DNA of 64,000 nucleotides, from the NCBI GenBank assembly GCA_036583965.1, contig JAZBQD010000021.1:17837266-17901265 (forward strand), read 5' to 3'. The position numbers were made by a program, and so were the translations under genes. The notes beneath the pieces are model-generated. The model had not been told where the DNA came from, did not search any database, and was given only the letters and a program-made list of their open reading frames with translations. Source of the stretch: Prunella strophiata. Taxonomy: Eukaryota > Chordata > Aves > Passeriformes > Prunellidae. Positions within the stretch are counted from its first letter, which is position 1. Every line of letters starts with the position of its first letter. Below, piece by piece: positions 7,925 through 60,834 of this stretch.

Positions 7925-9345
7925 CTGTGAGGGCTGAGCTAGAACAGAGGCTGGGCAGAGCTAAAGAATAAAGTAAGGATTTATTAAAAGGATCTCCTCC
8001 ATGGATCCACCTTGGGCAGCACAAGAGCCCAGCCAGGGCTGCACCCAAGATGAACCAAAATGGGCACAAAATGAACCCAAGATGAACCAAAATGGGCACA
8101 AAATGAACCCAAGATGAACCAAAATGGGCACAAAATGAACCCAAGATGAACCAAAATGGGCACAAAATGAACCCAAGATGAACCAAAATGGGCACAAAAT
8201 GAACCCAAGATGAACCAAAATGGGCACAAAATGAACCCAAGATGAACCAAAATGGGCACAAAATGAACCCAAGATGAACCAAAATGGGCACAAAATGAAC
8301 CCAAGATGAACCAAAATGGGCACAAAATGAACCCAAGATGAACCAAAATGGGCACAAAATGAACCCAAGATGAACCAAAATGGGCACAAAATGAACCCAA
8401 GATGAACCAAAATGGGCACAAAATGAACCCAAGATGAACCAAAATGGGCACAAAATGAACCCAAGATGAACCAAAATGGGCACAAAATGAACCCAAGATG
8501 AACCAAAATGGGCACAAAATGAACCCAAGATGAACCAAAATGGGCACAAAATGAACCCAAGATGAACCAAAATGGGCACAAAATGAACCCAAGATGAACC
8601 AAAATGGGCACAAAATGAACCCAAGATGAACCAAAATGGGCACAAAATGAACCCAAGATGAACCAAAATGGGCACAAAATGAACCCAAGATGAACCAAAA
8701 TGGGCACAAAATGAACCCAAGATGAACCAAAATGGGCACAAAATGAACCCAAGATGAACCAAAATGGGCACAAAATGAACCCAAGATGAACCAAAATGGG
8801 CACAAAATGAACCCAAGATGAACCAAAATGGGCACAAAATGAACCCAAGATGAACCAAAATGGGCACAAAATGAACCCAAGATGAACCAAAATGGGCACA
8901 AAATGAACCCAAGATGAACCAAAATGGGCACAAAATGAACCCAAGATGAACCAAAATGGGCACAAAATGAACCCAAGATGAACCAAAATGGGCACAAAAT
9001 GAACCCAAGATGAACCAAAATGGGCACAAAATGAACCCAAGATGAACCAAAATGGGCACAAAATGAACCCAAGATGAACCCAAAAATGCACGAGCGCTCA
9101 CGGGGTCTCTCACTGGGATCAGTTTGCTCCATTTTGCACCTTGGAGTTCATTGTCCCATTCCAGCTTTAGCCCCTGCAGTCCCAATCCTGCTTGTTTTTC
9201 TCTCCTCAGCCACGCTGTTTGTGCTCTTGGGCTGAGATTTGGATCATTTGTCCTTGGTGCCCAGCTGGAGCAGGAATTGTTTTGTCTCCCTGCTCTGTGC
9301 ACAGAGCTCACCATCCCCTGATGTGAAGCTCAGACCCACACACTT
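7925..9345. mobile_element. Possible interspersed element hosting the 32 bp minisatellite
   Basis: The unique flanks (about 7925-8042, with an AATAAA at 7967 and CTCCTCCATGGATCCACC; and about 9081-9345) look like the two halves of one dispersed element whose single internal segment expanded into the array. This is an impression of an LTR-type avian repeat, without a confirmed target duplication or a second copy in this window. Confidence 0.25.
8043..9080. repeat. Minisatellite, 32 bp unit, about 32 copies, nearly invariant
   Basis: The unit is GATGAACCAAAATGGG plus CACAAAATGAACCCAA, 32 bp, repeated head to tail for about 1.04 kb. I saw no variant among the internal copies; only the two edges deviate. 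Because 32 is not a multiple of 3 and the unit lacks minus-strand stops, all three minus frames stay open for more than 1 kb, producing large artificial reading frames (up to 512 residues, 32-residue period). This is not a gene. Confidence 0.95.
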
Positions 9346-14946: not shown

Positions 14947-16235
14947 GACCTTGGCAAGATTTAAGAAATGGAGCAATGAAAGCTGGAAATCTGATTAAAA
15001 AACTAATTTAGGCCTTGATTAATCTCAGTGCTCAAATACATTCCCGAAATTCAGGGTGTCAGAGCCCTGTGGGGGTCAAGAGGGCTCTCACTCATGGCCC
15101 TGAGCACACAGGTCTGTGCACACCTGGCCTCTGTGACCTGTGTGGAACTCACTGAGCACCTGAGCACCACCTGTAGGTTGGCATCAAATTGTACAAAACC
15201 ATCCAGTCTGTCCCTAAGGGAACATTACTGACCTCTGCAAAGCCCTGTTGATTCCTTCTGGCTGTACATGGGTATCCCAAAAGGGGCATCTTCCATACCC
15301 CTCAGGAAATCACTCCCACTGCCTCTCTGGCAATCATTCCCCTCACTCTTTACTATTTATACCTTTGGATACTTCTGAGCTATCATCAGAAGTATCTGAT
15401 TTTTCAAGAAGTCTATTTTTTCTCTTTCTTCCAGAGAAACCATCACCATTCAACAAAAAATACAACACCAAGGCTTTTTGATATGGTCAGTAAGCTCGGC
15501 CTTTTCTTTTTATTCCTCATTTTAATTTTAAATAATTATATGAAAAAGAAGTTTGAAGACTTTTGCTGTCTAGTATGATATGTTTACAGTCTGCAGACCA
15601 CAACTGCATTTCAAGCAAATGCTCTTGCAAACAGTATGTGTTTTATACAAAGCAGTGCAATTTGTTAGGTACAGATTGATCATCTGGCTACAGGCAAACT
15701 TTGAAAGCTGTCACATACAGCGGTTTTATTTTAAGCTTGTTACTGGCTTTAAATACAGAATTTGGATTTGTGTCTGTATGCCTGGTGGATGAGCTGTGGA
15801 TAACCACACTGGTGTGTAGCCCTGAAAGAATGGGGGCTACAATCCTAACACCTGGCTCAGGATATTCAATGCAAGAGCACTGGAAACTCAAAGGCAAATA
15901 AAATAACAAGTGTGTTTGTGCCAACAGAAGCTGGTTTGTTTGTTACTCATTCAGTGTTAGGCATTCAGCAAGATGCATGAGTGGTAGAGACAAAGTTTAC
16001 TCTTAGTAGTCATAGAGAAGAATGAGCATTTATCACTGAATCAACTCTGACTTTTATACATTCTCCCAACCTCCAGCTCCTTGGGGATTTTTTGGAGCTG
16101 GCTCTGTTGGGTTGAGTGCTGCTTTTACCTATGCCAGGAGAGAGGATAGCACTGTAACCTATGTTGTTGCTTTGCTTTGTGTATTTTGCTGATGCCCACA
16201 TGTGCACGTTTCTGTCCGTGGTTTTGGGAACACCC
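14947..16235. other. KCNG4 3' flank, no feature other than candidate polyA signals
   Basis: Between the solo LTR and the 3' UTR minisatellite. The part nearest the array (down to about 15700) is probably KCNG4 3' UTR on the minus strand. The rest is featureless. Confidence 0.45.
15725..15730 (-). promoter_or_regulatory. Candidate KCNG4 polyadenylation signal
   Basis: TTTATT on the plus strand reads AATAAA on the minus strand. This is the first such hexamer I found downstream of the KCNG4 stop beyond the minisatellite, and it would give a 3' UTR of about 1.45 kb. A second copy lies at 15509-15514. Hexamers are frequent in AT-rich DNA, so this is only a candidate. Confidence 0.25.
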
Positions 16236-17220
16236 CAGGCCAGGCTCAGTTCCCAGTGTAGATGTGTTTGATGGGGGGCACCAGGCTCAGGTCCCTGTGT
16301 AGATGTGTTTGATGGGGGGCACCAGGCTCAGTTCCCAGTGTAGATGTGTTTGATGGGGGAGGCCTGGGCTCAGTTGCCCATGTAGATGTTTTCCACAGGA
16401 ATACCAGGCTCAGTTCCCCGTGTAGATGTGTTTGATGGGGGAGGCCTGGGTTCAGTTCCCCATGTAGATGTGTTTGATGTGGTCTCCAGGCTCAGTTCCC
16501 CATGTAGATGTGTTTGATAGGGGAGGCCTGGGCTCAGTTGCCTGTGTAGATGTTTTTCACAGGGATACCAGGCTCAGTTCCCCGTGTAGATGTTTTTCAC
16601 AGGGATACCAGGCTCAGTTCCCCGTGTAGATGTTTTTCACAGGGATACCAGGCTCAGTTCCCCGTGCAGATGTGTTTGATAGGGGAGGCCTGGGCTCAGT
16701 TCCCCATCTAGCTGTTTTCACAGGGATACCAGGCTCAGTTCCCCATCTAGCTGTTTTCACAGGGATACCAGGCTCAGTTCCCCATGTAGATGTTTTTCAC
16801 AGGGATACCAGGCTCAGTGCCCTGTGTGATGTTTTTCACAGGGATACCAGGCTCAGTTCCCTGTGTAGATGTTTTTCACAGGGATACCAGGCTCAGTTCC
16901 CTGTGTAGATGTGTTTGATGGGGGAGGCCTGGGCTCAGTTCCCCATGTAGCTGTTTTTCACAGGGATACCAGGCTCAGTTGCCTGTGTAGATGTTTTTCA
17001 CAGGGATACCAGGCTCAGTTCCCCGTGCAGATGTGTTTGATGGGGGAGGCCTGGGCTCAGTTCCCTGTGTAGATGTGTTTGATGGGGGAGGCCTGGGCTC
17101 AGTTGCCCATGTAGATGTTTTTCACAGGGATACCAGGCTCAGTTCCCCATGTAGATGTGTTTGATGGGGGAGGCCTGGGCTCAGTTGCCTGTGTAGATGT
17201 ACTTGATGGGGGAGGCCTGC
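16236..17220. repeat. KCNG4-derived minisatellite (40-42 bp unit, about 24 copies) in the 3' UTR
   Basis: A head-to-tail array whose proximal end overlaps the KCNG4 stop codon. Two unit types are interspersed. One is 42 bp and contains GATGGGGGAGGCCTGGGCTC on the plus strand. The other is 40 bp and contains TTTTTCACAGGGATACCAGG. Both share CTCAGTT followed by a variable GTGTAGATGT or CATGTAGATGT. Read on the minus strand, the 42 bp unit spells ASPIKHIY(T/M)GN-stop, almost the same as the true C-terminus ASPIKYIYTGN-stop. The array therefore looks like duplication of the terminal codons and stop into the 3' UTR. Units differ at a handful of positions, so it is less homogeneous than the 32 bp array at 8-9 kb. 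Confidence 0.93.
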
Positions 17221-17966
17221 CCCTCCAGGACCAGGCTGTCCATCTCGTTGAAGGTGTCGCTCTCCCCGGCGCGGTTGCCGCTCTTCGCTCGGCTCAGCCG
17301 CGACTGCAGCCGCTCGTGCTCCTTGCGCAGCTCGGAGTAGGAGTGGGAGAAGGTGTGGAATATGGAGGTGGCGGGGAAGGACATGATGAGGATCCCGCTG
17401 AGGATGCTGCTCAGAGCCACCATCTGGCCCGGCACGCTCCGCGGCACCATGTCCCCGTAGCCCACGGTGGTCATGGAGATGATGGCCCACCAGTAGGAGG
17501 CGGGGATGCTGGTGAACTCCAGCACCCTGCCCGACTCGTTCTCAGCCAGGTACACCAGGGGGGAGAAGAGGGTGACGGCCACGCACAGGAAGAGCAGCAG
17601 CAGCCCGAACTCCCGCGTGCACTTGCGCACGGTGAGGCCCAGGGTCTGCAGGCCCAGCGAGTGCCGCGCCAGGCGCATCACGTACAGGATCCTCAAGGCA
17701 CGTAGGACACGGAGCACCAAGCCCACCTTCTCCAGGTACGTGTTGCTGCTCGGCCTGTCCTCCTCCTCGCCTGAGTCGTCCTCGGAGAAGATGAGGGAGG
17801 CGTAGTAAGGGGAAATGGCCAAGAAGTCGATGATGTTCAGGGGTCCTTTGAAGAACTGACACTTGCTCCTGGCCTGGATGAAGCGGAGGCAGAACTCCAG
17901 GGAGAACCAAGCCACGCAGATGGTCTCGATGATGAAGATGTAATAGCACTTCTGGGAGCACTCGCC
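17181..17966 (-). CDS. KCNG4: KCNG4 (Kv6.4) last coding exon, residues 251-511 and stop
   Basis: Encodes S2 to the C-terminus. The acceptor reads GTCGTGTGGCAG, then GGCGAGTGC (GECSQKCYYIF), continuing phase 0 from the first exon. By residue: S2 about 257-280; S3 about 291-310; an acidic S3-S4 linker (SEDDSGEEED, 311-320); S4 about 328-354 with R336, R339, R342, R348 and R351; S5 about 369-393; pore helix and TVGYGD filter ending at D422; S6 about 431-457. S6 has P448-A-T-S where conducting Kv1-4 channels have PVP, as expected of a silent subunit. The C-terminus has LVLEGQASPIKYIYTGN and then TGA at 17183-17181. Total length of 511 aa is close to the roughly 519 aa I recall for human KCNG4. 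Base composition is GC-rich, unlike the AT-rich intron. The last codons and the stop are repeated in the tandem array immediately downstream. Apparent plus-strand reading frames here are antisense shadows. Confidence 0.96.
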   Translation of the reverse strand, partial: GECSQKCYYIFIIETICVAWFSLEFCLRFIQARSKCQFFKGPLNIIDFLAISPYYASLIFSEDDSGEEEDRPSSNTYLEKVGLVLRVLRALRILYVMRLARHSLGLQTLGLTVRKCTREFGLLLLFLCVAVTLFSPLVYLAENESGRVLEFTSIPASYWWAIISMTTVGYGDMVPRSVPGQMVALSSILSGILIMSFPATSIFHTFSHSYSELRKEHERLQSRLSRAKSGNRAGESDTFNEMDSLVLEGQASPIKYIYTGN

Positions 17967-30052: not shown

Positions 30053-30802
30053 CCTGTCTTCTTCAGCTCTTAAGTCTGGCATTGTGCTCACGCAAAGGCT
30101 GACAGCTGTGGTGGCCACAAAGAGGATGGAGAGACAAGCAAAGACTTTGCCTGGCAGTCCTGACTGGGGATTTTCCACCATATCCCTGAGCCTGTTCATG
30201 AACTGCCCAAATCTGGTTTTCTCATCCAGGACACACGAAGCCTCCTTGCTCCTCCGGAGCTCCTCTTCCTTGCGGATCTCAGCCAGCTCCTGCAGCTTCT
30301 GGAAGAGCTTCCGAAAGCAGCAGTTCTCCAGGTTGGATTCCTCAATGCCCCAGTACCTCAGCTCCTCCTGGAAAGACAAGGCACACATGTCTCTCAGGAG
30401 CATCAGCTTCCCTGCTGCTAGGAAGCTGACGATCATCCCGAAAGCGTTGGGGTTCCTGTCGAAGAAGAACTCGTGGGTGTCCTCGTCGTAGTCGTCACAC
30501 AGCTGGATGATTTCCTCATAGCTGCTGCAAAGCTTCAGTTTGCTCAGTCTGGTCAGGGGAAACTCGTCCAAAGTGCTCCAAGGCAGCAGGTATTTGATGC
30601 CTCCAACGTTGATCATGATCTCTGTCTTCAGATCGACTGCAGACACCTGGTCAGGGTGGTAAATCCTCCTGGCCCTCTGGTAATGGACGCCCTTGACAGA
30701 AGGGGTTTCCACGCAGATGGGGAGGAAGTGGCTCAAGGAATTGCAGGAGTTGTAGCTAATGTTGCTATAGTCTTGGTCACTGCCTCTGGAGAGAATAGGC
30801 AT
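30053..30802 (-). CDS. KCNG4: KCNG4 (Kv6.4) first coding exon, residues 1-250
   Basis: Encodes the cytoplasmic N-terminus, T1 tetramerisation domain and first membrane segment of an electrically silent Kv channel alpha subunit. Family members do not conduct alone; they assemble with Kv2 subunits at the plasma membrane and shift gating (family knowledge). The T1 domain spans about residues 61-165: INVGGIKYLLPW at 64-75, FFFDRNP at 112-118, and C140 followed by the C161-C162 pair typical of the zinc-binding region. S1 is about 219-240 (hydrophobic, ending in CVSTM). The stretch VETPSVKG near residue 31 and the block NPQSGLPGKVFACLSILF resemble mammalian KCNG4 more closely than KCNG1-3, as I remember those sequences. 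The ATG at 30802 has G at -3. The exon ends GACAGG, followed by a perfect GTAAGT donor at 30052-30047, in phase 0; reading on would give a short spurious extension and then a stop. There are no frameshifts or internal stops. Confidence 0.95.
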
Positions 30803-40746: not shown

Positions 40747-42299
40747 AGCTGGCTTGGCACGAGGACCAGGAACTTTAGGAAGGTCTAAAGGCTCCTTGTG
40801 AGCTTCCCTGCCCAAAGCTGGCATTGCCTCCTGTAAAGTGATCATTCTGCACTCTCCATCTGTATTCCCCACCTCCTCTTATCCTACAAAGTCATGAGGG
40901 CTTATCAGCTGTGACTGCTAAAAGGGCAGGGAGGAAAAATAATCAGCAAATGTTTCATTCACCATAATCTAAAAATTGCCATCGCTGAGTCAGCAAAGGT
41001 GGGACTGGGCAAGGAATGGATCTGTGAGTCATGTTTATAACCCAGCTTTTGTTGTAAACACTACAAAGAGGCATTAATTAACAATAAAATCAAGGGAAAT
41101 GCCTGGCAGGATAGATACAGAGACAGAGACAGAGCTGGAGAGATTAGAGAAAATGGAAGGCACTCGTAAACTCAGGCTGAACCTGAGGAAATTACTGTGT
41201 GTCCACTGTGGGGGATTAATCTAAAGCAAACCAGGCATGAAGTAGGAAGAGGGATGAATGCAATGAAAAGCAAGAGTCAGGAAAGCAGAAATGCTGCTTG
41301 GTTTTACAGCACGTTAGGCTAGGATACAGCAAAACAGAAAATGGCTCCATTTTTTCAGTTTATCCAGCAAATAAATCAAAATATGTTTGTAGAGATTTTT
41401 GCCAAGAAGATGCTATGGATTGTGGGTTAAATGGGAGTACTGCTAAATTCTCACCTCCTGTGGCTTTGGATTTCATTGTTTGAAAGAGATTTGCAGAATT
41501 TCAAACGAATGGGGTTGACAAAGTCATTTAAAGATGTGAAAGTTTTGTCTTATGAAGAAAAGGCAAAAGAACTTAGAAGATTATTGGTGACACCATCCAT
41601 CCACAGATTCTGAGTGGCTGTTAGCATGAAGTGAAAGGAAATCCTTCTCTCAATGTTTCAGGGAGGACCTTAAATTTCACGCTGAATGTCCTAACTAGAC
41701 AACAGAAAATGTCTTAAATAAAATGCCACGTAGGCTCCTGAAGGAAAAGGAGTTTTTCCAGTGAAGTTGCTCTTCTTCCCCTGAAGTTTTGTCCTCATCC
41801 AGTGCTGCTTTGGATGAGTGTAAGCAGGAGAGGATGGGGTTTGAGAGGATGGATTTTCCCCTTGGCTCAAGTGAGGACAAGACACACTGCTGCAAACTGT
41901 AAAAGCAACACCCCTGCTCTCTGTTAAGCAGCACAAACAGCACTCAGAGCATTTCCACATTCACTTCTCTCATTTGGGCTTTAAAACCTCTTACCTGGAG
42001 CTTAAATGACAGATCCTCCTGTTTCTGCAGCACTTTCCTCCTATCCCCTTTCAATAATTCATATTCATCTACACCTCATTCCAGGCTCCTTTTCATTGCT
42101 CCTTTGATAAACAACAAGAGATGAGAGGTGCAGGAGATGCTGAGATATGACTGTGGCTGCAAACACTCCTGGTGTTGCAGGGAAATAACTTCATTACCAC
42201 TTGGGCTCTTACTGCTTGCCTGGAAATATCCAGGCAGTGCCTGCCTTAGAAATGTGTGGCAGCAAGAGAGGGAGAAAAGAGCTTGTTTTTTTCAGAAAT
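40747..42299. other. Non-coding, nothing recognised
   Basis: Intergenic, with short chance open frames only. A small GACAGA repeat occurs near 41120. Confidence 0.55.
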
Positions 42300-43400
<1,101 letters not shown>

Positions 43401-59516: not shown

Positions 59517-60834
59517 ACATATATATTAATTATATTTATTAATATATATTAATATAATATATAGTATAATATTGATATATAACTATAATATAATTATATA
59601 ATAATTTGTGTAAAATCTAATAAATATCTATTATAGTATATATTATAAAATTTATATATAATATAATAGATAATTATAATATATTATATATTATATATAA
59701 AATATATTCTATATAATATATAGAATAATATATATATATATAATGTATCATTGCATAATATATAGTATTTATATAATTATATTATATTAATTATATTATA
59801 TTATATTATATTATATTATATTATATTATATTATATTATATTATATTATATTATATTATATTAATTATATTATATTATATTAATTATATTATATTATATT
59901 ATATTATATTAATTATATTATATTATATTATATTATATTATATTAATTATATTATATTATATTAATTATATTATATTATATTATATTATATTATATTATA
60001 TTATATTATATTATATTAATTATATTATATTAATTATATTATATTATATTAATTATATTATATTATATTATATTAATTATATTATATTATATTATATTAT
60101 ATTAATTATATTATATTATATTATATTATATTAATTATATTATATTATATTATATTAATTATATTATATTATATTATATTATATTATATTATATTATATT
60201 AATTATATTATATTATATTATATTATATTAATTATATTATATTATATTAATTATATTATATTATATTATATTAATTATATTATATTATATTATATTAATT
60301 ATATTATATTATATTATATTATATTATATTATATTAATTATATTATATTATATTAATTATATTATATTATATTAATTATATTATATTATATTAATTATAT
60401 TATATTATATTAATTATATTATATTATATTATATTATATTATATTATATTATATTAATTATATTATATTATATTAATTATATTATATTATATTATATTAT
60501 ATTATATTATATTATATTATATTAATTATATTATATTATATTATATTATATTAATTATATTATATTATATTATATTATATTATATTAATTATATTATATT
60601 ATATTAATTATATTATATTATATTATATTATATTATATTAATTATATTATATTATATTATATTATATTATATTATATTATATTAATTATATTATATTATA
60701 TTATATTATATTATATTATATTATATTAATTATATTATATTATATTATATTATATTATATTAATTATATTATATTATATTAATTATATTATATTATATTA
60801 TATTATATTATATTATATTATATTATATTATATT
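59517..60834. repeat. AT-only block with an ATTAT pentanucleotide array of about 1.06 kb
   Basis: 59517-59774 is irregular AT-rich sequence. From about 59775 to 60834 it is ATTAT pentamers, interrupted at irregular intervals by a 4-base ATTA unit (seen as TTAATTAT). It ends abruptly at GGGTTTTGC. Confidence 0.95.

Follow-up and report, generated by a model that had tools for sequence, protein, structure and literature searches.

The window, by which we mean the whole 64-kb stretch of DNA analysed here, carries KCNG4 on its minus strand. Its two coding exons (30802-30053 and 17966-17181) join in phase across a GT donor and a CAG acceptor and give a frame of 511 aa that ends in a TGA stop at 17183-17181 (minus strand).

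30053..30802, minus strand: KCNG4 exon 1, from the start ATG to the donor AGG/GTAAGT; open frame, phase 0 with exon 2
17181..17966, minus strand: KCNG4 exon 2, ending LEGQASPIKYIYTGN-TGA; Pfam PF00520, E 2.5e-41

On the coding strand the gene ends in CTGGAGGGGCAGGCCTCCCCCATCAAGTACATCTACACAGGCAACTGA, and the C-terminus of the protein reads LEGQASPIKYIYTGN-stop. The domain in exon 2 is the Pfam ion transport domain (Kv-type channel core), and the best matches of the spliced 511-aa protein are bird KCNG4 sequences over their full length, with 94% identity to stilt KCNG4; together these identify the gene as KCNG4. Over residues 1-470, identical aligned positions number 463/470 with white-eye (Zosterops, P0004), 450/470 with stilt (P0001), 436/449 with zebra finch (P0007), and 419/440 with quail (P0008). 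On these counts the bird is most likely a passerine, the order of both Zosterops and zebra finch.

A tandem array starts on the base right after the KCNG4 stop (17180) and runs head-to-tail for 935 bp, to 16246. Repeat finding and unit-by-unit division resolved it into 23 units of 39-42 bp, which makes it a minisatellite in the usual sense of head-to-tail units of roughly 10-100 bp.

17181..17222, minus strand: last 42 nt of the KCNG4 CDS, homologous to the repeat unit by comparison with the units
16246..17180, minus strand: tandem array of 23 units (8 A, 12 B, 3 hybrid)
17139..17180, minus strand: unit 1, type A, in frame with KCNG4 and translating to AQASPIKHIYMGN-stop
17099..17138, minus strand: unit 2, the first B-type unit by unit division
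16452..16491, minus strand: unit 18, hybrid type GCCTGGAGACCACATCAAACAC..., by unit division
16246..16327, minus strand: units 22 and 23, both hybrids of 41 bp; PIKHIYTGT is encoded in unit 22 (16316-16290)
15725..15730, minus strand: first AATAAA downstream of the array in a sequence scan, presumed poly(A) signal

Other repeats lie elsewhere in the window. At 8043-9085 is a 32-bp minisatellite (32.6 copies, 99% matching by TRF). Because three of its units come to 96 bp, three long frames on the minus strand stay open across it (517, 387, and 378 aa between stops); on this evidence they are not genes. Positions 42298-43390 hold a very long (AT)n tract of about 550 dinucleotide copies (91%), and 59522-60834 a 1.3-kb AT-rich tandem region of mixed short periods.

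Relation of the array to the coding end

All eight A units are 42 bp long and, in their own register, read [A/T]QASPIKHI[Y/C][M/T]GN-stop. The 12 B units (nine of 40 bp, three of 39 bp) have a 5′ half that is GCCTGGTATCCCTGTGAAAA or a close variant, and the three hybrids (units 18, 22, and 23) measure 40, 41, and 41 bp. An earlier note on this DNA had described a mixture of a 42-bp and a 40-bp type; the two types stand, but the real lengths range from 39 to 42 bp. Its in-frame reading of the unit next to the C-terminus holds, and that unit translates to AQASPIKHIYMGN-stop. A units share a mean identity of 95% with one another, B units 92%, and units of different type 73%. To the KCNG4 coding end, mean identity is 84% for A units and 68% for B units, whose likeness lies mainly in their 3′ half. 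The coding end and the A units have in common CAGGCCTCCCC(C/T)ATCAA and ACATCT(A/G)CA. TRF reports periods of 40 bp and 82 bp for the array, and two pairs of neighbouring units (11/12 and 14/15) are identical.

When up to three mismatches are allowed, the 64 kb contain 23 occurrences of the core AACATCTACANRGGNAACTGAGCC, one at the coding end and 22 in the array, where unit 9 alone lacks it; 100 dinucleotide shuffles average 0.01 occurrences. The core is not invariant, reading for example CATCTGCA in units 4 and 13 and CAGCTAGA in units 11 and 12. Ungapped, the final 42 nt of the CDS agree with the array at as many as 37/42 positions; the rest of the window, compared on both strands with 16201-17300 excluded, reaches 26/42, and 500 single-base shuffles of the array at most 25/42. 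Chance likeness of coding end and array is excluded. Unit homology, the core count, and the 37/42 match together confirm the observation at the centre of the earlier note, that the array repeats the last codons and stop of KCNG4. That note had also named copies of the unit elsewhere as a check; within the 64-kb window, there are no core copies outside the array and the coding end. Viral contigs held 0 copies, which says little for a bird, and a search for proteins resembling the array ORF (16249-16491) gave no candidate with three shared words. At 17202, where the coding end has AAGTAC and the A units AAACAC, a weak donor-like site, CAA/GTACAT (6/9 consensus), is present in the coding end only.

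The KCNG4 tail in other species

The C-terminus of other species, which the earlier note had put forward as a check on direction, was compared among proteins. A search with KCNG4 returned 2329 proteins at E up to 0.001, and the best 120 were compared, clades being assigned from names. These 120 were clustered at 90% identity, so that most birds stand behind a few representatives (P0003 has 500 members). Among these best 120 of 2329, the ending YIYTG[N/K] is present in 3/6 birds (stilt, tinamou, and quail) and 2/7 turtles, a third turtle ends SPIKYIYAGN, and 8/17 squamates end exactly in SPIKYIYKG. Within the same best 120, the pattern SP[I/V]K[Y/H/Q] occurs in the last 14 residues of 3/6 birds, 1/1 alligator, 3/7 turtles, 10/17 squamates, 1/2 monotremes, and 8/48 placentals, and in 0/21 amphibians, 0/3 marsupials, 0/14 fishes and sharks, and 0/1 unnamed entry; a related aromatic-Gly tail (e.g., YKYFYTGK) ends 16 of the 21 amphibian entries, some of which come from one species. 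ASPI stands at the same place in mammals, for example in LEGPASPIKYI (P0044).

The three birds without the expected tail are Aegotheles (SPIDCIYKGN), the zebra finch model, and the white-eye model, whose last exon is a different one. Of the seven turtle models, four likewise have other endings. Several of the turtle models (P0057, P0059, and P0066) have another last exon, ..NKAKQQ.., instead of SPIKYIYTGN, a hint that KCNG4 may undergo alternative 3′ splicing in turtles. The odd turtle tails P0057, P0059, and P0095 gave no significant match to the window; the best window match of the Pelusios (side-necked turtle, P0095) tail falls in the array (11 residues, E 0.15, not significant).

Because the same or a related tail ends KCNG4 in birds, turtles, squamates, and some mammals, the coding end is older than birds, and the array would derive from it. 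As far as proteins allow, this settles the direction as copying from the coding end, the first of two origins that the earlier note had offered; the opposite direction would need an array ancestral to amniotes.

The window KCNG4, stilt, and owlet-nightjar have Gln at the position that corresponds to the Gln of the A units (EDQASPI in stilt and owlet-nightjar); Pro occupies it in quail, tinamou, alligator, and the three readable turtles. Both stilt and owlet-nightjar are members of Neoaves. All eight A units have CAG (Gln) before GCC TCC CC, so the coding end already had Gln when the array formed or when it was later homogenised from that end; judged on this small sample of species, the array is probably young. 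Where the coding end has CAAGTAC, every A and hybrid unit has CAAACAC, and their founder therefore probably changed Tyr to His before it spread.

Transcript and reading frame

No AATAAA occurs within the array. The array lies behind the stop, and the first AATAAA (15730-15725) lies beyond it; a transcript ending at that signal would carry the array in its 3′ UTR, where we infer it to be located. Folded as RNA, the 935-nt array strand is more stable than 20/20 dinucleotide shuffles (z -5.9). Four two-unit pieces gave z values of -1.7 to -3.7, compared with -0.05 for the coding end alone and -0.8 for the coding end with unit 1. B units with CACAGGG or CACGGGG can pair that stretch with CCCUGUG.

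The KCNG4 stop precedes all 23 units, and copy number thus leaves the protein intact, as the earlier note had stated. We calculated what errors at the gene end would yield. Loss of the first stop adds 14 residues and ends in SPIKHIYMGN, in agreement with the arithmetic of the earlier note for a 42-bp unit that follows; with the array left out, it adds 29 unrelated residues. Counted from the stop on, frame +1 runs for 27 residues with the array and 40 without it, and frame +2 for 19 and 78 residues, respectively. Deleting single bases in the last 48 nt (48 cases) gives the native-like end PGIPVKNIYMGN 45 times, an unchanged end once, and an early stop twice. Duplicating single bases (48 cases) gives an LSLVSL tail unlike the native one 45 times, an unchanged end once, and an early stop twice. 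Over 23 units and three frames, 41/69 entries end native-like. The strong form of a rescue role, in which the array would remedy any frame error, was rejected on the outcome of the duplications.

The zebra finch UniRef model P0007 ends in ...FPHQIPSTQGTESLETPSNTAAGGTEPGDPIKHIYTGT. Its tail matches the window array in a shifted frame (36 aa, 64% identity, E 1.3e-11 in 64 kb), and its last nine residues are those of unit 22, PIKHIYTGT (16316-16290). Reading the protein back into codons by eye, we judged unit 18 (GCCTGGAGACCACATCAAACAC...) to be most like the middle of the tail. The zebra finch locus thus probably has at least two array-like units beyond the coding end. P0007 has other defects, namely 21 missing membrane-domain residues and SSCARSTSGCQSRV where relatives have SELRKEHERLQSRL, which are signs of indels in the zebra finch assembly or model. 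A zebra-finch-like tail was found in no protein other than P0007 (11 candidates). In the available portion of one source, zebra finch KCNG4 appears as a partial gene, and repeats are not mentioned there (PMC3711925).

Discussion

We consider it likely that this minisatellite began when the final ∼42 bp of KCNG4, stop included, were duplicated in tandem, and that it spread near-neutrally in the presumed 3′ UTR; the founding event probably fell on the bird lineage that led to songbirds. In that event, the ancestral tail (SPIKYIYTGN-stop) would have been duplicated directly behind itself. Freed of coding constraint, the copies would have changed KY to KH or KN and split into the A and B types, and replication slippage or unequal exchange would then have spread them, hence the 82-bp A-B tendency and the identity of some adjacent units. 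Such events between copies are how arrays of this kind usually grow, and the identical neighbours (units 11/12 and 14/15) and the A-B pattern fit this route. Since every copy stands behind the real stop, copy number does not alter the protein, and back-up stops would have come along with each copy as a by-product. The effect is likely near-neutral, a presumed 3′ UTR that is ∼0.94 kb longer and possibly more structured. Counting against the duplication model, 12 of the 23 units (type B) have a 5′ half that is not clearly derived from the coding end. So do the three bird models with other tails, the absence of SP[I/V]K[Y/H/Q] from the amphibian, marsupial, and fish-grade proteins compared, and the placing of the best, non-significant Pelusios match in the array. 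Direction and age are read from the proteins of other species, so array-free relatives are not among the evidence for duplication.

Two alternatives concern where the array came from and where it lies. An unrelated minisatellite could have overrun the KCNG4 end and replaced the original C-terminus, the other origin considered in the earlier note; the tail and the A units are nearly identical, and the window alone gives no direction. The same or a related tail across amniotes, with ASPI at the same mammalian place, contradicts such an invasion; the tail is ancient, and we rejected this origin as barely credible. It is unlikely, to a lesser degree, that the array lies outside the mature 3′ UTR, in a 3′ intron or in 3′ flank that is not used. 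The white-eye model P0004, which skips the array, breaks off from exon 2 early, and its last part is homologous to 15821-15729; in the window, these positions come after a good acceptor (CCCCCATTCTTTCAG/G) and finish at AATAAA. The exon 2 end (17400-17181), however, has no good donor near the white-eye junction. Its best donor-like site, with 6/9 consensus bases, is elsewhere, at 17202, and the white-eye UniRef entry may have arisen by automatic bridging of a gap. The stretch 15729-15821 (minus strand), 90% identical to the last 31 residues of P0004, with the good acceptor before it and a TAA inside AATAAA at its end, is itself a possible alternative last exon behind the array.

Two further alternatives give the array a role in the protein. 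Selection might have kept the copies as a functional element that supplies back-up stops and partly native-like C-termini. Stop loss is then cheap, most single-base deletions end native-like, and both shifted frames are shorter with the array. In the portion of PMC4047056 available to us, the Kv6.4 C-terminus interacts with the Kv2.1 N-terminus and the Kv3.1 C-terminus in its place disrupts assembly, so changes to the KCNG4 tail could matter; that portion does not single out the last ten Kv6.4 residues. Against selection, the benefit is automatic for any array made of a gene end, most duplications end unlike the native tail, and only 41/69 unit-by-frame entries end native-like. Moreover, 15/23 units are 39-41 bp long and thus change frame or lack the A reading, and the A units vary at amino-acid-changing sites (Y/C and M/T). 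We regard a selected function as highly improbable; the back-up effect is partial, a by-product of unit content, with no sign of selection for it. In the other alternative, the array serves as a store of spare ends for the gene. A frameshift in some songbirds, for which P0007 would be the example, would carry translation past the stop and through units to the native-like PIKHIYTGT, and the C-terminus would evolve along the repeated stops. The other defects of P0007 make it doubtful that the zebra finch protein runs into array units, and we hold this alternative to be rather improbable. If it were true, it would show how copies of a gene's own end can serve to replace or lengthen its C-terminus.

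Under the favoured duplication model, the KCNG4 array would be a clear case of a minisatellite with a nameable source, the gene's own last codons and stop, and with a datable founder event around the Pro to Gln change in birds. It is an unusual repeat and a probably harmless one, and it offers a testable case of repeats that are unable to lengthen a protein unless the stop or the frame is broken. Among the titles and openings of abstracts searched, most subscription journals lying outside that search, we recognised no report of a KCNG4 array or of a stop-carrying gene-end minisatellite.

The nearest analogue in position is human SLC6A3/DAT1, in which, according to the part of the source available, a 40-bp VNTR lies in the 3′ UTR and an effect on expression was measured (PMC1325255). 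Both loci have tandem units of ∼40 bp in a (presumed) 3′ UTR of a neuronal membrane-protein gene, with a protein unchanged by copy number; they differ in that an effect on expression was measured for SLC6A3, whereas the KCNG4 array is known from one sequence only. The DAT1 unit is not known to be derived from its own coding end. For frame trouble, the nearest analogue is the exon 11 VNTR of CEL, described in the accessible text as 33-bp repeats that are translated into 11 residues each (PMC8692231). As in KCNG4, a minisatellite sits at the 3′ end of a gene, and frame changes lead to repeat-encoded tails. The CEL repeats are translated, whereas the KCNG4 stop at 17183-17181 stands ahead of every unit, so that the array is not a coding C-terminal VNTR of the CEL type, and only the zebra finch model resembles CEL.
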